This document shows, one piece after another, positions 13,426 to 56,952 of a DNA stretch of 64,000 nucleotides (within the stretch, counting starts at the first letter, position 1; every line of letters starts with the position of its first letter). Location: assembly GCA_018434355.1 (NCBI GenBank), contig JAHDPL010000027.1, positions 1 through 64,000 on the forward strand, given 5' to 3'. This DNA is from Sporomusaceae bacterium (GTDB lineage Bacteria; Bacillota; Negativicutes; UBA1444). The notes beneath the pieces were generated by a model. The model ran no database searches. It was not told the origin of the DNA and saw only the letters and a program-made list of their open reading frames with translations. A program made the position numbers and the translations under genes.

Positions 13426-16400
13426 GGTTCCCCCTTGATTCCAACAAATTTTCCAGACCTTCATAGTCGTATTTTTCGACCATTTCTCTCATACACTGAA
13501 CCGCTTCCAACAGCGGACCCTTGGCAATGGCGGCGACGTCATCCAGGATTTCCAAAAGTTGATAATAATCGCCGTAGCTTGCCGCTTGCTTAAGCGCCAA
13601 AGCTTGTTCATCGGCAAGCAAGGACAAGTCCGGCGCGACGCAGTCCGCTTCAGTCATTTCCGATTCTGCAGCACCGTGTTCCTCTTCATACAAGAACGTC
13701 ACAGATAACATTTCTCCAATAACATGCAGCAATTCGATTTCTTTGAATGGTTTGCGAACATAGAAATTCATGCCGCACTCGTACGCTTTGCGTTCAGCCT
13801 CCTCAAACACATTGGCCGAGATGCCGACCACTTTGAGTTCCGGCCACTGCCTGCGAATTTTCCGGGTAGTATCATATCCGTCCAACTCGGGCATCATCAC
13901 ATCCATCAGAACCAGATCCGGCCGCCAGGAGGCAATTAGCCGCAACGCCGTTTCGCCGTCCGTTGCTTCCGCAACCTCAAACCCGATCTGCAGCAAAAAA
14001 CTCTGCAGAAATTCCCGGTTCATTTTTTCGTCATCCACAATCAGAATCCGCGGCTGAACATCAGCATCCACCAAACCAACCACACGTTTTTTAAGCGGGC
14101 GCAACTTGGCTGCGACAACCGCGCGGGCGCGGATATGTACCCGGAAACAGCTGCCTTTGCCCGGCTCGCTTTCCACCACGATATCGCCGCCCATCATCCG
14201 CGCCAGTGAACGGCTGATTGAAAGCCCCAGGCCGGTACCGCCGGCCTGCGCCCCTTCGCGGGTTTGACTAAAAACCTGAAAGATCGCTTCCTGATCCGCT
14301 GCGGCAATTCCCATGCCGGTATCAGCAACTTCAAAAAACAGGTAACATTCAGTCGGATCACTTTCAACTAACGGTTCCGCCCACACCCGCAGGTCAATGC
14401 GGCCCGCATCGGTAAATTTCAGGGCATTGCCCAGCAAGTTGATCATGATTTGGCGCAATTTCTGCTGATCGGCAACATAATGGACAAGATCTAGCCTATC
14501 GTCATCTACGCGGAACACCAACGCCTTGTCTTCGATTTTTTGTCGGAACATACTGTCCAGATAATCAAGCATCAACCGGATATCAAACGGCGCGGAATTG
14601 ATTCGCATCTGCCCGGCCTCGATCTTGGAAGTCTCCAGCACGTCATTCAGCAATTCCAGCAGATGTTCGCCGCTGCGACTAACGGTGTTCAGATAATGCC
14701 GTTGCTGGACTGATAATGAATCATCACGCAGCAATAGTTCGGTAAACCCTAAAACCGCATTCATTGGCGTTCGGATTTCATGCGACATATTGGCCAGGAA
14801 TGCACTCTTCATGCGGGTGGCGCTTTCTGCTTCTTCTTTCGCCCGCAGCAAAGCTTGTTGGGAGAATTTTTGCTCGGTGATGTCCTCTTTTACAGCCAAA
14901 TATGCCGAAACTGCCCCCTGCTCGTCGCGAATCGCAGTAATCGAAGCTTTTTCCCAGAATAAACCGCCATTTCGTTTTCGGTTCAAAAACTCGCCCTTCC
15001 ACTCGCGACCTGCTGTGATAGTCTGCCACAAATCCTGGTATACCTCTGGCGGCGTCCTGCCAGATTTAAGAATCCTGGGATTTTTGCCGATCGCTTCAGC
15101 CGCGCTGTAGCCAGTCACGTCGGTAAACCGTGGATTAACATAGGTAATATTGCCGCGCAGATTGGTGATCACTGTCGCAGCCGGGCTCTGTTCCACCGCA
15201 GTCGATAGTTTCCTGAGTTGTTCGCGGGTATTGACGTTTTCGATCGCAATACCTGCCCAGTGAGCGGCTTCGATCATCAGTTCCATCTCGTCCGGACTGA
15301 TTGGTTTTTCCTGTCGCCAGTGAATCACCAGTGCCCCAAGCAACTGCTCATTGCCGGCAACTATCCATTCCGTATGTTGCGTAACAAAACCGGCGTTCTT
15401 CATCAATTGGTGATAGATATCCAGCGAAGGGCGCTGCGAAGTTGTTGGCGGCGAAATATTATCCTGAACCACGCCGCGCTGACTTACGGCGGCAACACCA
15501 GTCGGCAAACCCGAGCGGGCCCCCAGCAATAACTGCCGTTTTTCCGCGTCCACGATCAATATGCTGCAGACTGCTTCCGGCAGTTCTTCGCTAAGGTATT
15601 GGATGATACTTTCAAGAATTTCCCGACGCGAAGCGCCCAGCGCCAATTTTTCGAGGGTCTGGCGCTGACGAGACTGCCGTTTCTCCTGTTTCTTTCGCTC
15701 GGTGATGTCAAACACCGTAGCCCGCGAATGCAGGAACTGCCCTGCTTCATCCATCCGGGCCGTGGCGTTGACCAGCACCGGAAAACACGAACCATCCTTG
15801 CGGACCACTTCATATTCGATCGGTTCGCCATAACCTCGTTTTTGCACTACAGCAAACAACTGATCAAACACTTGTACGCTTTGCGGCGACAATAAAGACC
15901 TGAAACGGACTTTCCCCAGCAACTCCTCGCGTTCGTACCCCAGCCAGTCCAGTTCCGTCTGATTAATCTGAACGAATACACCATCCTTGTCCAGTGAATG
16001 GTAGCCGCAGGGAGCATTGTCATACAGATCGGCGACTTCTGCTGACCGTTCATCGATACGGCATTCTAATTCAGCATTCAAGTTCTTTAGCAGAACCTCG
16101 GTTTGCTTGCGATGAATCGCTACCGCCACCTGATTGGAAATGATGTTCAACATCTCCATTTGCGCTTCGCTGATCACTTTGCCGTGCGCATCAGCCTGAA
16201 CCACCAGCGCGCCCAGCATCTCCCCGTCCGGGCTACGAAGTGGAATTGCCAGATGCTCCGCTGCCGAAATATTGGTCTGGTCTGGGCGTTGCAAAACTTT
16301 ATCTTTTGTCTTTTGCCGATAAATGACCACGCGGTCGCCGCTGCGTATCACCTGGTCAATCAGCTGTTCCACCGACAAATCTTCGTCCGACCGGCAAGCT

Positions 16401-50185: not shown

Positions 50186-50893
50186 TTACCGGGCCGTCAG
50201 TTTCTCCAATCGGAGCATTTGTCCGGGCAGACACTCCTCGATAATGCGTCCAGCATGCATCACGGCGATCCGGTCGGCGACTTCGGCCAGCGCCTTCAAA
50301 TCATGGGAAATCATTAGAAACGAGGCGCCACTACCTCTTTGCAGCTCACGCAACAATTGCAATATCTGTCGCTGCACCGCTGCATCAAGCGCTGAAGTCG
50401 GTTCGTCCAGAATCACAAAACGTGGCCGACAGATCAGAGCACGAGCCAGATTGACCCGTTGCGCCTGACCGCCGCTCAGGTTGCGCGGCGACTCGTTAAG
50501 CAGCGAAGCCGGAAGGTGAACCGAGTCAAGCGCCTCGGCGATTCGCTCGTTCCGAACAACGGTCGGGACTTCACTCAGATTTCGCAGCGGTTCTTCTAGA
50601 ATGCTCCTTACGGTCCAGCGACTGTTCATCGCTTCGCCAGGATGCTGAAACACCATCTGGACCTGGCGATAAAATGCCTTTCGGTCTGGGTATTCCGCAT
50701 AGTTTCGTCCGTCGAACAACAACGCCCCTGCATCAGGCCGCTCCATCCGCATAGCGATCCGGGCTAGCGTTGTTTTTCCACAACCGCTCTCGCCAACCAG
50801 ACCGACGATTTCATTCTCGCCCACCGCCAGGCACAGTCCGGACAATACCGCATGACGATAAGACTTTTCAATTTGTTCCGCCTGCCAGATCAT
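50186..50893 (-). CDS. Nickel/peptide-type ABC transporter ATPase (NikE-like)
   Basis: 235 residues. Single ABC domain with Walker A GESGCGKTT, signature NLSGGQAQRVNLAR, Walker B FVILDEPTSALD and the switch His in MISHDL. It lacks the long C-terminal oligopeptide-specific extension. It is the last gene of the five-gene operon and overlaps the preceding ATPase by four bases (ATGA). With that protein it would form the ATPase pair of a nickel, metallophore or dipeptide importer. Confidence 0.93.
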   Translation of the reverse strand: MIWQAEQIEKSYRHAVLSGLCLAVGENEIVGLVGESGCGKTTLARIAMRMERPDAGALLFDGRNYAEYPDRKAFYRQVQMVFQHPGEAMNSRWTVRSILEEPLRNLSEVPTVVRNERIAEALDSVHLPASLLNESPRNLSGGQAQRVNLARALICRPRFVILDEPTSALDAAVQRQILQLLRELQRGSGASFLMISHDLKALAEVADRIAVMHAGRIIEECLPGQMLRLEKLTAR

Positions 50894-51618
50894 CGTCGAT
50901 CCCCCGTCATCGCCATCCGGCCGCCTTGCAACATCGCCAGCCGGTCGGCGTAGCGCTCCACCAGATCAAGGTCGTGCGACACGAACAAAACCGCCAGATT
51001 GCGCCGGCGCTGCTGAATCCGGATCTCATCCAGCAAGTCAAGCCTCAGACCAGCATCCAGAGAAGATGTTGGTTCATCAGCCAACAGAAGCTGCGGCTCC
51101 AGCGCCATGGCCATGGCCAGCACCACCCGTTGGCACATGCCGCCGCTCAACTGGTGCGGGTAGGATTCGAAAACCCGCAGAGAGTCGGGCAGATGAAACC
51201 TTTCGAGTAGTTCCAGACTGCGCAGTCGGGCAGCAGTAGCAGCAAGTCCGAGTCGCAATCGGAATAGTTCAGCGACCTGCGAACCGACCGTCCGCACCGG
51301 ATTGAGCGCCGCCACAGCCTGCTGCGGCATGAATCCGATCGAGCCACCTCGTAGCCGGGTCAATCCCGGCTCGTCAAGCGTCGCCACATCTCTGCCCTGA
51401 AAGCAGACCCTACCGGATTGAAGGCTCGTCGGCGGCAGCATCCGCAGAATCGCTCGCAACAAAGTGCTTTTGCCACTGCCGCTCTCGCCAATCAGGCCGA
51501 GCCACTCGCCGGCTTGCATCGCCAAGGAAACATCGGTCAGCGCCGCTACGCTACGGGCCACCGATTCATGGCGAACAGTCAACGAGTCGACTTTCAGCAA
51601 CGCTTCATGGTTTGACAT
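50890..51618 (-). CDS. Nickel/peptide-type ABC transporter ATPase (NikD-like)
   Basis: 242 residues. ABC domain with Walker A GESGSGKST, the GGSIGFMPQQAVAALNP segment typical of the Opp/Nik family, signature LSGGMCQRVVLAMA, Walker B LLLADEPTSSLD and LFVSHDL. The start overlaps the end of the binding-protein gene by 14 bases and the stop overlaps the next ATPase. Confidence 0.93.
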   Translation of the reverse strand: MSNHEALLKVDSLTVRHESVARSVAALTDVSLAMQAGEWLGLIGESGSGKSTLLRAILRMLPPTSLQSGRVCFQGRDVATLDEPGLTRLRGGSIGFMPQQAVAALNPVRTVGSQVAELFRLRLGLAATAARLRSLELLERFHLPDSLRVFESYPHQLSGGMCQRVVLAMAMALEPQLLLADEPTSSLDAGLRLDLLDEIRIQQRRRNLAVLFVSHDLDLVERYADRLAMLQGGRMAMTGDRR

Positions 51619-53110
51619 GAGCCTCTGTCAACCCCCGATACAATTGCCATGTCCCGACCGAAACCTTGTACCCCATTACCTGTTGCTTCATCGCCACGAT
51701 ATTGTTGCGATGAAACAACACGATCACCGGCATCGCCCCGGCTATCGTTTCCTGGATACGGTGATGCAGGCGCAGCCGCTCGGCCGGTTCGGCCGTTGCA
51801 AACAACTGATCGACCAAAACAGTCAATTCCGGCGTCCGGTAAACGTCGAAGGTGGATGTCGGATGGTAATAGCCGCGCCGGTAATGTGAAGACGGTTCAT
51901 CATGCGGGATGAAAGACTGTCCGAGCATGATCAGATCGTAATTTTTCTTTTTCAGCGCGTCCATCAATGCCGCATCTTCCAGAGGCTCCAGAACCGCCGT
52001 CACGCCGACCGCTTTCAGTTCTCCCTGGATCGCGCCGGCCAACAGACTATCCTCGGCATTCTTGGCGCCAAACGCCAGCCGCAGCCGCAGCGGTCGACCC
52101 GCCAACAACTGCTTTGCCCGATCGGGATCGTAAGGAAGCGCAGTATCGCTTTTCATCACGTAATCGCCGTAGGCCGGTGAAAAGAAGGTTTTTCCTGCTT
52201 CTGCATTAGCCCCCAGCAACGAGGGGACAAGTTTGGCGATGTTCAGGCTGTGGCCGATCGCCTGCCGGACCTTAATATCCTGGAGCGCCGGGCTGCTTAC
52301 ATTAAGAAACATGATTTCCGAAGTCTGGCCCAGCCGTTTTTCCATTTTCAATTTCGGATTGCCGCCCAGCCTGGTGGCGGCAGTAAGCGATTGCCGCAGA
52401 CTGATCAGATCGACCGTTCCTGCTTCTAGAGCCATCGCCCGCGAATCGGGATCGCGAATCACCTTGAACACCAATTTTTCATTCTTCGCGCTGCCGCCCC
52501 AATAACTTGAGTTGCGCTTCAATACAAACTCCTGGTCTTTTTGCCAGCTTTCCAGACTGTAAGGACCGGTGCCGATCGCCTTGACCACTTTTCCTGCGGC
52601 ATCGACGCCACTTGTCCCTACGATTGACAGAAACGGAACGGCCAAGTCGGAAGCAAAAGTAAAGGAAGGTTTGTTCATCAAGACCTTGACGATATACTCA
52701 CTGCTCGCTTCAACCGAAGCCACATCCATCAACCAGACCTTGCCGGAACCTTGCCGCAGCCGTTCCAGGTTCTGCTTCACCACTGTTGCTGTCAGCGGCG
52801 AGCCGTCATGGAACTTAACCCCTTGGCGCAGCGTAAACGTCCACGTCTTGCCGTCCGGCGACATCGTCCAGCGTTCCGCCAGCGCGGGAACCAGCTTGAA
52901 GTCGGCGTCCAACTCAACCAGACTGTTGAAAATGAGCGTGCGGAGAAACGGCGACATCGTAGTCCCCGGATCGTAGCCGCCTAGATCGGTGTTTTCGCCG
53001 ATCACTATCTGCTGCGGCGGTGCAGCCGGCGCTGCGCCGCAACCGGCGATTAGCAGGCCGATGAGCAGGCAAGCGATCAGCCACAACGCTTTGTTGTTTT
53101 GTTTCTGCAT
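51605..53110 (-). CDS. NikA-like solute-binding lipoprotein
   Basis: 501 residues from the ATG at 53110 (AAGGGAG upstream). Lipoprotein signal with lipobox IAGC, Cys24. SBP_bac_5 family with LVPALAERWTMSPDGKTWTFTLRQGVKFHDG, AIGTGPYSLESW and FKVIRDPDSRAMALEAGTVDL, closest in feel to nickel-binding NikA-type proteins. Nickel (often as a chelate) or a peptide/opine could be the ligand; binding residues cannot be decided by eye. It lies between the second permease and the first ATPase, an order different from nikABCDE. Confidence 0.9.
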   Translation of the reverse strand: MQKQNNKALWLIACLLIGLLIAGCGAAPAAPPQQIVIGENTDLGGYDPGTTMSPFLRTLIFNSLVELDADFKLVPALAERWTMSPDGKTWTFTLRQGVKFHDGSPLTATVVKQNLERLRQGSGKVWLMDVASVEASSEYIVKVLMNKPSFTFASDLAVPFLSIVGTSGVDAAGKVVKAIGTGPYSLESWQKDQEFVLKRNSSYWGGSAKNEKLVFKVIRDPDSRAMALEAGTVDLISLRQSLTAATRLGGNPKLKMEKRLGQTSEIMFLNVSSPALQDIKVRQAIGHSLNIAKLVPSLLGANAEAGKTFFSPAYGDYVMKSDTALPYDPDRAKQLLAGRPLRLRLAFGAKNAEDSLLAGAIQGELKAVGVTAVLEPLEDAALMDALKKKNYDLIMLGQSFIPHDEPSSHYRRGYYHPTSTFDVYRTPELTVLVDQLFATAEPAERLRLHHRIQETIAGAMPVIVLFHRNNIVAMKQQVMGYKVSVGTWQLYRGLTEAHVKP

Positions 53111-53140
53111 GAATAAAACTCCCTTCACGACTGTTGCTTT

Positions 53141-53983
53141 CTATGGTTGCCGGGTTGTCGACTCGGATAATAGTTGCAATGCCAGCACAACGCCGGCAAT
53201 CATCACGCCCGGCCAGAGGATCAGTTGCGGCGCGACCTGCATATAGGCCTTGCCTTCGCTCAGCATCGCGCCCCACTCCGGGGCTGGCGGCTGGGCGCCA
53301 AGACCCAGAAAAGACAACCCGGCAATGCTGATGATAATCCGTCCGTAATCGAGCGTAGCAATCACCGCCACCGCCGGCGCGACTTCAGGCAGGATATGTC
53401 GGCGCAAGAGGTCGAACGGCGATGCTCCGGCGATACGGGAGGCCTGGACATAGGTGCGCTCACGCAGACTCAGCGTCATGTTGCGGACGATCCGGGCGTA
53501 GCCGACCCAATGCACCAGGCAGAGAGCCAATACGGCATTTTCCAGTCCCGGCCCCAGCACGCCGGCAATTGCCAAAGCCAAAATCAGGCCGGGAAACGCC
53601 ATCACACCCTCCAACAGCCGTTGCACCAGGTAATCGCAGCGACCGCCAAAAAAACCCGCCACCAGGCCGATCGTTGCGCCGACCGACACAGTGACAACCA
53701 ACACTACCGCCGCCGACAACAGCGAATTGCGAGCCCCGTGAATAATACGTGAAAACACGCAGCGTCCCAGTGAATCTGTCCCCAGCGGATATTCAACGGA
53801 TGCCGGCTGCAGACGATTTGTCACATCGACCTGCAACGGATCATGTGGCGCCAACGCGCCGGCAAAAATTGCCATGCCGATATAGAGGAGCAGAATCAAC
53901 AGGCTACCCTTACGCAGCAACGACGTTTTTCCGCATAGCGTCCTGCCCCAAATCTCGATCAGACCATTCGTCTGGCAGCTCAT
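53141..53983 (-). CDS. Nickel/peptide-type ABC transporter permease (NikC-like)
   Basis: 280 residues, about six helices. BPD_transp_1 domain with HPLGTDSLGRCVFSRIIHGARNSL-like start and the coupling loop ASRIAGASPFDLLRRHILPEVAP. The C-terminus (LALQLLSESTTRQP) diverges from the usual LGDGLRD ending of this family. It is coupled to the other permease by an ATGA overlap. Confidence 0.93.
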   Translation of the reverse strand: MSCQTNGLIEIWGRTLCGKTSLLRKGSLLILLLYIGMAIFAGALAPHDPLQVDVTNRLQPASVEYPLGTDSLGRCVFSRIIHGARNSLLSAAVVLVVTVSVGATIGLVAGFFGGRCDYLVQRLLEGVMAFPGLILALAIAGVLGPGLENAVLALCLVHWVGYARIVRNMTLSLRERTYVQASRIAGASPFDLLRRHILPEVAPAVAVIATLDYGRIIISIAGLSFLGLGAQPPAPEWGAMLSEGKAYMQVAPQLILWPGVMIAGVVLALQLLSESTTRQP

Positions 53984-54924
53984 CGGTCACGCCCCTCTCC
54001 CAGGCGCAGTCGTGGGTCCAGCCAAGCACAAACCAGATCAGTCGACAAGTTCACCAGCGTATATAAGACGGCCATTACCAAAACATAGCCTTGGATCAGC
54101 GGGTAATCACGGTTAAAAATTGCATCCACCAGCAACTTCCCCAGACCGGGCCAGGCAAATACCGTCTCGATCAGCACTGCTCCGCCCAGCATATGACCGA
54201 ACGTCGAGCCAAGCGAAGTGACGACAGGCAACAGACTGACAGGCAGGCTGTGGCGCAGCAGAACCTGCCAGGCCGTCAATCCTTTGGCAAGGGCAAATTC
54301 GGCGCAAGGGCTGCGTCCGCTCTCCAAAAGCCCGCTGCATAACAGTCGAGCATGCACGGCTGCCGCCGTAAAACCGAGTGAAATCGCCGGCAACAACAGT
54401 TGTGGCAAGCTGCCCCTTCCCACGGCAGGCAACCACTGCAGCTGGACGGCAAACACAAACATCAGCACCAGTCCCAGCCAATAGGCCGGCAGCGAAATTG
54501 CCACCAGCGCATAGGCTTTGCTGAACCGGTCGACCCAACCGCCCGGTCGATACGCCGCTGACAACCCTAATGCCAGGGCCACCGTCAGGGCTACCAGCAT
54601 CGCCGCCAGCGTCAGTTCCAACGTAGCCGGCAATCGCAGCAGAATCTCAGCGAGCACAGGCTCTTCGCTGTAGTAGGAGCGACCGAGATCACCGATGCAT
54701 AACCGTTGAAACCAATGCAGATATTGCATGGCCAGCGGCTGGTCCAGACCGAGTTCCTGGCGAATCTGGCTGATCGCATCTCCGGTCGGGTCCTGGCCGC
54801 GTTGCTGCAACAGAAGCATGGCCGGATCGCCGGGCGTCAGTTGCGTAATGGCAAAACTGACCAGGCTGATGACCAGCAAGGTCGGCAACAAACCGAGAAA
54901 ACGGGCAGCGATGTATCTTGCCAA
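53980..54924 (-). CDS. Nickel/peptide-type ABC transporter permease (NikB-like)
   Basis: 314 residues with a TTG start (AAGGGAG nine bases upstream). N-terminal membrane-insertion segment MARYIAARFLGLLPTLLVISLVSF and LTPGDPA, then a BPD_transp_1 domain with the coupling loop AKGLTAWQVLLRHSLPVSLLP. It is the first gene of the operon. The 188 bases upstream hold a terminator and a cluster of small hairpins (54967-55085). Confidence 0.92.
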   Translation of the reverse strand: MARYIAARFLGLLPTLLVISLVSFAITQLTPGDPAMLLLQQRGQDPTGDAISQIRQELGLDQPLAMQYLHWFQRLCIGDLGRSYYSEEPVLAEILLRLPATLELTLAAMLVALTVALALGLSAAYRPGGWVDRFSKAYALVAISLPAYWLGLVLMFVFAVQLQWLPAVGRGSLPQLLLPAISLGFTAAAVHARLLCSGLLESGRSPCAEFALAKGLTAWQVLLRHSLPVSLLPVVTSLGSTFGHMLGGAVLIETVFAWPGLGKLLVDAIFNRDYPLIQGYVLVMAVLYTLVNLSTDLVCAWLDPRLRLGEGRDR

Positions 54925-54966: not shown

Positions 54967-55023
54967 AAAACAAAAACGGTATAAAACAATGAAGACTTCA
55001 TGTCTCCAGCGGTTTCATACCGT
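54967..55023 (-). terminator. Terminator with nested hairpin before NikB-like gene
   Basis: On the minus strand ACGGTATGAAAC and GTTTTATACCGT pair over 12 bases, enclosing the small hairpin AGAC-ATGAA-GTCT, and are followed by TTTTTGTTTT. It lies between the SH3-like gene and the ABC operon. It may terminate the former or attenuate the latter. Confidence 0.85.
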
Positions 55024-55085
55024 ACTTCACGCGAAATAGATTACCGGCGTTCACGCCGTGCTTCGGCTAACCTTCATGGTTCGCC
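54993..55085 (-). promoter_or_regulatory. Cluster of small hairpins with (A/G)TGAA loops
   Basis: Four hairpins in tandem on the minus strand: GGCGAACC-ATGAA-GGTTAGCC (55065-55085, one G-A mismatch), CGGCG-TGAA-CGCCG (55045-55058), CGGT-ATGAA-ACCG (55010-55022) and AGAC-ATGAA-GTCT (54993-55005). The stems differ while the loops stay the same, a sign of selected RNA structure. The third hairpin competes with the terminator stem. No known riboswitch consensus fits by eye. Confidence 0.55.
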
Positions 55086-55112
55086 AACTGGTGATTCTGC
55101 CAATCCAGTTTG

Positions 55113-55823
55113 TCAGGGCAGCTCGACCGTCATCTCGCAGGGGCCATAGACAAACCCTTTGAAATTGGAATCGTAAAACACTTCATAAACGCCGCCGGTT
55201 TCACTGGTCCAACGCCATTCATCCGGTTCCGGCGTCACTTTGTCGTTTTCGTCCCGCCACCAATAGCCATAGGCGTGAGGAACGCCCTTTTGCCGTTTGG
55301 CGATATCCGGTCCGATTACCCCGCTCGGCCAGTACACCCGCCGGGGTTCTTCGATGAGTCGCTGCGGCCTTAGCACCAATGTCTGACCCGGTTGCACTGT
55401 CACTATGTATTTGTGCGAACCGGTGCCGATGAACTTTCCCTGCAAAACAACCGGTGGTTGCACCGGTTCTGCGAACAGATTGCAACTGTACTCTGTCCGG
55501 TTGGCAGCAATCCAGCCGTTTTTTTGCGGCGCCTGCTTACTGCGTAGCGCAACCTCGAACCAACCGTCCTGCTCGCGTAAAATCAGGTCGGTCCAGCCAT
55601 TGGGCAAGCTGGAAATAATGTTGCCGGCAACCTGCTCCGGCGCTGAACGAACAGCCAGCGGCAATTCTGCGGCATTGACCCGGTAATGGTAAATCCGGCA
55701 ATCCGCTTGACGCGGCATAGGCAGTCCCGCCGCCGGGAAGCCGAATGTGGGCGATGCCAGCACCATTGGCAGGGCTGTCAAGCAAAGCAACACCATCAGT
55801 AAAACAGAAAAAAGCCTTCGCAT
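55113..55823 (-). CDS. Exported SH3-like protein of unknown function
   Basis: 236 residues from the ATG at 55823 (GGAGG seven bases upstream); the longer frame lacks a start signal. Signal peptide (about 1-23, ending VLAS). The mature part has a central region resembling a bacterial SH3 domain (DGWFEVALRSKQAPQKNGWIAANRTEYSCNLF) and a C-terminal strand-rich region with many Trp and Tyr (YGYWWRDEN, EWRWTSETGG). Cysteines near 42, 113 and at the C-terminus may form disulfides. No enzyme motif is seen. It lies 68 bases after the dipeptidase. A cell-wall or surface role is only an inference. Confidence 0.75.
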   Translation of the reverse strand: MRRLFSVLLMVLLCLTALPMVLASPTFGFPAAGLPMPRQADCRIYHYRVNAAELPLAVRSAPEQVAGNIISSLPNGWTDLILREQDGWFEVALRSKQAPQKNGWIAANRTEYSCNLFAEPVQPPVVLQGKFIGTGSHKYIVTVQPGQTLVLRPQRLIEEPRRVYWPSGVIGPDIAKRQKGVPHAYGYWWRDENDKVTPEPDEWRWTSETGGVYEVFYDSNFKGFVYGPCEMTVELP

Positions 55824-55890
55824 TATGAAACCTCCGGCAATTTCCTTGATATTCCTTATCTTGCTATTCCTTATTATATTGGACCGGACG

Positions 55891-56952
55891 TCAGTTCGCA
55901 ACCCTGTCGCCGACCACGGCCCGATGAAGCTGCAGCAGGTTGCCGCCAAAGAATCCAGCCAGATCCGCCGGTGAAAAGCCGCCGGCGAGCAGCGCCGCGC
56001 CTACGTCCGGCAACGCCGTCGACCGCCGGAACCAGACCGGCAGGCCGGCATCGATCTGGTCGGTTGCCCAGGCGACATGTTCCGGCCCCACCCAGTCTGC
56101 CAGTCGCAGCACGCTCTCGCTATATTCGGCAAGCGATCCGAAAGCATAGGGCGGCGCCACCACCCAGGTGCCGATCACGCCGCCGGTATCCGCAATGACC
56201 CGGGCATGGTCGCGGCTGATAAAGCGCAAATGTTCGTCCGTGTCGCTACTGCGCATCATCGTGTGCGACAAAACCAGCGGAATGTCTGCCTGTTCCGCCA
56301 TCGCGACCGTTGCGGCAAACGAGGCGTGGGCCACGTCGAGCAGCATCCCCAGACGGCCGACTTCCCTTACCATCTCGCGACCCAATCCGCTTAACCCGCC
56401 CCAACGCGGCGGATCGGTCTGGTTGTCGCAAAATGCGCTTGGCAAATAATGCGCCGGAGCAAACTTCGTATGACCGTCTTGCTTCAGCACTGCCAGTCGC
56501 CCCAGATCCTCCTCCACCATGTAACCGCCTTCGACCGACAAGAACAGCGCCTGCCTGCCGCTTTCGACAATCGGCGCAATATCGCCCGCATGACGAGCCA
56601 GCACGACCGGCAGTGATTGCAGCATTTCCGCCAGCAGCGCCATCTGTCGCCGGTATTCCTGCCATGCCTCGCCAGCTTCGAAATCACGTATTTTATTGCC
56701 GGGCGCGCCCAGCTGAATCAGCGGCAAATCAACCGGCAATCCAAGAAAACTACATTTCAGCCCAACCGACAAGTTATCGAGGATATTTTGTTTCAGTTTC
56801 TCATCGCCTGGATAACCGGCAATCTCGTTGGCAAAAGACCCCCGGTTCAGCCCCTTGGCCTCCCACAACCCCAAATGGCTATGCAGGTCTACCGTCAGTT
56901 CTTGTCTTAGGATCGTTGCCGCGATCTGCCGATTGTCTGTTGTGGTGCACAT
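55891..56952 (-). CDS. M19-family (renal-type) dipeptidase with variant metal site
   Basis: About 353 residues from the ATG at 56952, which has AGGGAG nine bases upstream; the two earlier in-frame ATGs lack a site. Peptidase family M19 features: bridging Glu141 in LSVEGGYM, His209 in LDVAHAS, His230 in LSHTMMR and Asp298 in ATDQID. The first metal motif is HSH (His24, His26) where the family usually has His-x-Asp. No signal peptide, so cytosolic. It should hydrolyse dipeptides or related amides. Upstream neighbour of the SH3-like gene and the ABC importer, so it may process imported peptides. Confidence 0.88.
   Translation of the reverse strand: MCTTTDNRQIAATILRQELTVDLHSHLGLWEAKGLNRGSFANEIAGYPGDEKLKQNILDNLSVGLKCSFLGLPVDLPLIQLGAPGNKIRDFEAGEAWQEYRRQMALLAEMLQSLPVVLARHAGDIAPIVESGRQALFLSVEGGYMVEEDLGRLAVLKQDGHTKFAPAHYLPSAFCDNQTDPPRWGGLSGLGREMVREVGRLGMLLDVAHASFAATVAMAEQADIPLVLSHTMMRSSDTDEHLRFISRDHARVIADTGGVIGTWVVAPPYAFGSLAEYSESVLRLADWVGPEHVAWATDQIDAGLPVWFRRSTALPDVGAALLAGGFSPADLAGFFGGNLLQLHRAVVGDRVAN

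Follow-up and report, generated by a model that had tools for sequence, protein, structure and literature searches.

The window analysed here is the whole 64,000-nucleotide stretch of a Sporomusaceae contig. On its minus strand, a run of small hairpins and an intrinsic terminator, together referred to below as the element, lie between a gene for an SH3-like protein and an operon for a nickel/peptide-type importer. The features are as follows, in the order in which the minus strand is read.

55113 to 55949, minus strand: SH3-like protein gene (stop codon 55115-55113), immediately upstream of the conserved element and outside it
55069 to 55081, minus strand: P1 hairpin, AACC-ATGAA-GGTT, whose counterparts in relatives covary
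55045 to 55058, minus strand: extra linker hairpin, CGGCG-TGAA-CGCCG, 5 pairs
55023 to 55038, minus strand: fifth stem, in the linker, TATTTC-GCGT-GAAGTA
55010 to 55022, minus strand: P2 mini-hairpin, CGGT-ATGAA-ACCG, a putative antiterminator whose outer pair covaries in relatives
54993 to 55005, minus strand: P3 hairpin, AGAC-ATGAA-GTCT, inside the terminator loop
54967 to 55023, minus strand: intrinsic terminator, 12-pair stem and U tract, with covariation (match to covariance model R2, described below, at 54973-55024, 59.5 bits)
53980 to 54924, minus strand: NikB/Opp2B-type permease (NF045470, 361 bits, cut-off 350), with a predicted TTG start
53141 to 53983, minus strand: NikC/Opp2C-type permease (NF045474, 306 bits, cut-off 300)
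51605 to 53128, minus strand: family 5 solute-binding protein, NikA-like (PF00496; TIGR02294 at 211 bits, below the NikA cut-off of 393)
50890 to 51618, minus strand: NikD-type ATPase
50186 to 50893, minus strand: NikE-type ATPase

The element begins directly after the stop codon of the SH3-like gene, and the NikB/Opp2B-type permease gene is the first after the terminator. The original prediction described four minus-strand stems with unlike arms and a shared loop (ATGAA three times, TGAA once), followed by a 12-bp terminator stem with a T tract that excludes one of the small hairpins, and both observations held. The four hairpins occupy 55081-54991. P1 is lengthened by outer GGC/GCC pairs to 55085-55065, and P3 comprises six pairs if a G-U is counted (GGAGAC-ATGAA-GTCTTC, 55007-54991). 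The extra TGAA hairpin of the linker is not seen in the closest relative; the fifth stem shares its final base with the start of the terminator 5' arm, and a linker stem is predicted in the related leader of genome G295 as well. In the terminator stem, ACGGTATGAAAC (55023-55012) pairs with GTTTTATACCGT (54987-54976), and TTTTTGTTTT follows. Because the 5' arm and loop of P2 are common to the terminator, the two structures are mutually exclusive.

To assess the clustering of these hairpins, the whole window was shuffled with its dinucleotides preserved. Hairpins counted if they had four or more Watson-Crick pairs and a loop of 4-6 nt, and they made up a cluster if they fell in a span of 100 nt, agreed in the final four letters of the loop and differed in their stems. 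Among 2869 shuffles there were 35 clusters of three or more hairpins and none of four, and in the window itself 54967-55112 is the sole place with four such hairpins in 100 nt. The 201-nt region also folds more stably than its shuffles by 3.3 standard deviations (z = -3.3). As the cluster test was devised after the pattern had been seen, the relatives of the element provide the stronger evidence.

No promoter could be recognized between the SH3-like gene and nikB, the best site matching 8 of 12 positions. Lacking a good promoter of its own, the window copy is probably fed by read-through from upstream, and the switch, placed between the SH3-like gene and nikBCADE, would here serve as an intra-operon attenuator.

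A DNA similarity search of the leader against 380 genomes of the class returned nothing convincing, only short chance-like matches. With the SH3-like protein as a guide, only the sister genome was reached, and the element is absent there. Entry was gained via the NikB permease, which has a 61% identical homologue in G295. This homologue lies downstream of genes for an FmdE-like protein and a methyltransferase, upstream of which is a leader that contains ACGGTATGAAACCG, a hairpin GGAACT-ATGAA-GGTTCC and the terminator found in the window. A covariance model made from these two leaders (R1) found more members in the class, mostly from one family of large genomes, and a core model (R2) was then built on 21 members. 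With R2, about 60 places in 40 genomes were convincing, single genomes having up to about a dozen; for the leader-based covariance models as a whole, the tally stands at about 60 relatives, from about 20 genomes that all belong to this class. Gene content suggests that this class is probably the Negativicutes and that the richest family is Sporomusa-like. The window's genome has one copy only. A second, weak match in it (C16:159278) falls within a coding frame and was discarded, and neither R1 nor R2 found a copy in the sister genome of the genus, which is 73% complete.

Outside the class, no element was found at 80 loci of NikB relatives, and a phylum-wide R2 search of 388 genomes gave two weak out-of-class matches, both ordinary terminators; the filters of that search were stricter, at the cost of weak matches. 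Neither the window nor the tested relatives matched any Rfam 15 family at curated or loose thresholds, including the NiCo, cobalamin, c-di-GMP and guanidine riboswitches, none of which the original prediction had been able to match. No description of the element was found in the open-access literature searched. We conclude that the element was previously uncatalogued and that its loop code, regulon and taxonomic spread appear new, transcription attenuation itself being of a known kind.

The relatives share a common layout, in which P1 with an NTGAA loop is followed by a linker, P2 and the terminator. P1 is a hairpin of 4-9 bp and P2 is a mini-hairpin of the form NGGY-ATGAA-RCCN, the 5' arm and loop of which constitute the 5' arm of the terminator. 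The linker ranges from about 6 to 70 nt. It is 6-7 nt long in one subgroup (eight elements), while most other elements have about 28-67 nt. The terminator loop often contains a third hairpin, frequently GGAY-GTGAA-RTCC. When all 1024 pentaloops were tallied in upstream hairpins with a stem of 5 bp or more, ATGAA proved the commonest, occurring in 16 of 60 elements where shuffles gave 0.2, followed by GTGAA in 5 elements and TTGAA in 4. Only 21 of the 60 elements have a P1 whose stem reaches 5 bp and whose loop is ATGAA or GTGAA. In a second subgroup the P1 loop is AGAA (ATATGGC-AGAA-GTCATAT), and in a third no clear P1 can be made out.

Covariation supports all three parts of this layout. In P1, represented by 15 distinct sequences, 96.7% of cells are paired, with 21 double-change cells against 6.5 in shuffles (0 of 500 as high), and in the terminator with its inner hairpin P3 the corresponding values are 83.9% and 24 double-sided changes against 10.7 (again 0 of 500). 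P2 calls for evidence of its own, as the terminator uses the same 5' arm. The outer pair of P2 is A-T in 19 cases, T-A in 14, C-G in 8 and T-G in 5, that is, 46 of 64 paired where 29 are expected, and in 15 of 55 cases it forms although the terminator is unable to pair there. This indicates selection on P2 as an independent hairpin. These counts are uncorrected for kinship, and related sequences inflate them.

The ATG of the P2 loop raises the possibility of a leader peptide attenuator, in which it would open a short reading frame ATG-AAR-CCN (Met-Lys-Pro), and the variable positions R and N do fall on third codon positions. However, of 65 such ATGs only 2 have a Shine-Dalgarno-like sequence ahead of them, the reading frames vary from 3 to more than 40 codons, P1 loops include GTGAA, AAGAA and ACGAA, and the variable base pairs with its partner in P2. 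On account of the rare Shine-Dalgarno sequences, the uneven reading frames and the non-ATG P1 loops we rejected this explanation, which is very improbable.

A promoter-like site matching at least 10 of 12 positions occurs within 180 nt upstream of 36 of the 60 elements, against 4.3 in shuffles, usually just before P1. We infer from sequence alone that most relatives are likely to be 5' leaders of transcripts with their own promoters. The 78 downstream proteins include 16 family 5 binding proteins, 10 FmdE proteins, 10 methyltransferases, 6 TonB receptors and 2 CbiM. Four binding proteins (in G306, G297, G298 and G305) are NikA equivalogs, scoring 594-732 bits against a cut-off of 393. NikBCDE-type transporters and CbiMQO are also found downstream, as are, by sequence inspection, CDF efflux proteins, CbiK-like proteins and ECF components. 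A few elements precede genes without an obvious metal link. Judging from gene content, nickel and cobalt handling is what the downstream genes have in common.

The original prediction allowed that the structure might merely be the 3' end of the SH3-like gene. Under this explanation the element would be only that gene's terminator with chance hairpins, as suggested by its start right after the stop codon and by the terminator that closes the stretch. It is largely refuted and very unlikely, since the sister-genome homologue has no such structure and the relatives lie behind promoters and ahead of metal genes, with covariation. The SH3-like protein itself (window 55113-55949; L010:1453-2202 in the sister genome) is of a secreted type with no Pfam or NCBIfam match, and among the 380 class genomes is present only in these two, at 52% identity; the transporter does not follow the gene in the sister genome.

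Comparison of the sequences shows a family of leaders in which P1 precedes P2, and P2 excludes a terminator just upstream of metal-uptake genes. The proposed link to the importer operon thus held, with relatives upstream of nickel and cobalt importers, and the proposal of an RNA with covarying stems and constant loops recognized by a protein or ligand is supported by compensatory stem changes under retained ATGAA loops, the recognizing factor remaining unidentified. Of the outcomes named as refuting it, a lack of covariation and a lack of any link to the importer operon were checked by sequence comparison, and both checks favored the proposal.

In the interpretation that we favor, the element acts in cis to attenuate transcription of a nickel/cobalt uptake regulon; we put the probability of this reading at roughly 0.65 in the absence of expression or metal-response data. 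The criterion for an attenuator, a leader terminator with a conserved and mutually exclusive alternative structure, is met. In folding of growing transcripts, P1 and P2 appear first and then the terminator, which is about 10 kcal/mol more stable, so that off would be the default state and P2 would need something to hold it. We therefore picture the switch only by inference: P2 would form first as RNA polymerase transcribes the leader and would then refold into the far more stable terminator, unless an unidentified factor recognizing both NTGAA loops held P2 and allowed read-through. This would presumably occur under nickel or cobalt scarcity, the metal being inferred as the signal from the genes only. 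Against the attenuator reading, the window copy has no recognizable promoter and its binding protein falls below the NikA cut-off, elements other than the 21 with an ATGAA or GTGAA P1 have AGAA-type loops or no clear P1, the metal link is not obvious for a few elements, and the sister genome has no copy. As to the factor, a dimeric RNA-binding protein fits better than a compact aptamer because the linker is variable and unconserved and identical loops are repeated; we regard the former as an evenly balanced proposition and the latter as possible but less likely.

One possible alternative is a protein-free riboswitch, with the two ATGAA-loop hairpins themselves binding Ni2+, Co2+ or a metal complex. 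It is in keeping with the identical loops, the nickel/cobalt gene context and the lack of any co-occurring regulator found, and the variable linker is no bar to it. Conversely, the hairpins are all short with five conserved loop bases, some elements have no P1 or have other loops, and P2 is equally explicable by protein recognition. A bolder version is likewise tentative: the element would then represent another class of RNA that senses nickel or cobalt, the second after NiCo and not related to it, and would control termination across the whole uptake regulon. The NiCo (czcD) riboswitch, a compact four-way junction, resembles the element in its nickel/cobalt transport genes, but its Rfam model is unmatched in the window and tested relatives, and the element is a string of separate hairpins. 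The guanidine-II (mini-ykkC) riboswitch likewise consists of two hairpins whose short loops are identical and whose linker varies. Its loops are ACGR and its gene context is guanidine export, both of which differ from those of the element, and there was no Rfam match.

A further rival, alike in layout, is a divergent ANTAR system, in which an ANTAR response regulator would bind the dual hairpins and prevent termination, like EutV, NasR and AmiR. The ANTAR antiterminators of the eut, nasF and amiE leaders have the same two small conserved-loop hairpins, the second overlapping the terminator, and likewise serve several operons per genome (PMC3369931); in this respect the criterion is met, and ANTAR proteins are present in 38 of the 40 genomes. 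However, the loops of ANTAR targets are hexaloops with A1 and G4, and their linkers are short, at 2-25 nt (PMC3369931, PMC8164766), whereas P1 and P2 have the pentaloop ATGAA with G at position 3, and the linkers of the element reach about 70 nt. The genes downstream of the element also differ, being those for nickel and cobalt. Co-occurrence is uninformative because the ANTAR protein is nearly everywhere, and its presence is independent of that of the element; G295 (88% complete) has elements and no ANTAR match. With an ANTAR-like layout, the wrong loops and linkers, and ANTAR genes present regardless, the element would work like an ANTAR target without being one, and we consider this alternative unlikely. 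The window's genome itself encodes an ANTAR response regulator (L247, G000:C51:132017) after a histidine-kinase-like gene and upstream of groEL. Lambda boxB-type hairpins resemble the element in their short stem and purine-rich pentaloop, which in lambda is recognized by an antitermination protein. An N-like protein is not known for the element, which differs in having two hairpins proposed to act together, one of them overlapping the terminator.

Hydrogenases, CO dehydrogenase and B12 enzymes need nickel and cobalt, and the carriers of the element appear likely to be acetogen-like bacteria. If confirmed, an RNA attenuator shared by as many as about a dozen uptake operons in one genome would delimit the nickel/cobalt regulon of these bacteria. 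It would also bring to light a new metal riboswitch or else an antitermination protein that is new and reads a new loop code. The leaders of nikA in G297, G306, G305 and G298 are concrete candidates for testing.

Several further observations concern individual loci. In G304, a cobalamin riboswitch (L142:551-731, 113 bits) is located downstream of an element, placing both kinds of control in one cobalt locus. In G302:C2, the matches between 86963 and 135813 repeat exactly 701,564 bases further on, which may reflect duplication of a segment or an artefact of the assembly. At L211:10411-11088 and L227:6254-6943, the protein encoded after the element has a CoA-binding domain and a Rex-like N-terminus of the DNA-binding kind (domains confirmed for the L211 protein), and it is possible that these proteins regulate the same regulon. 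Within this regulon, a class II tRNA-synthetase-like protein adjoins a radical-SAM-like protein in G302 (L205:15029-16324 and 13913-14935; also L162 and L219), a pair that might belong to a metallophore pathway.
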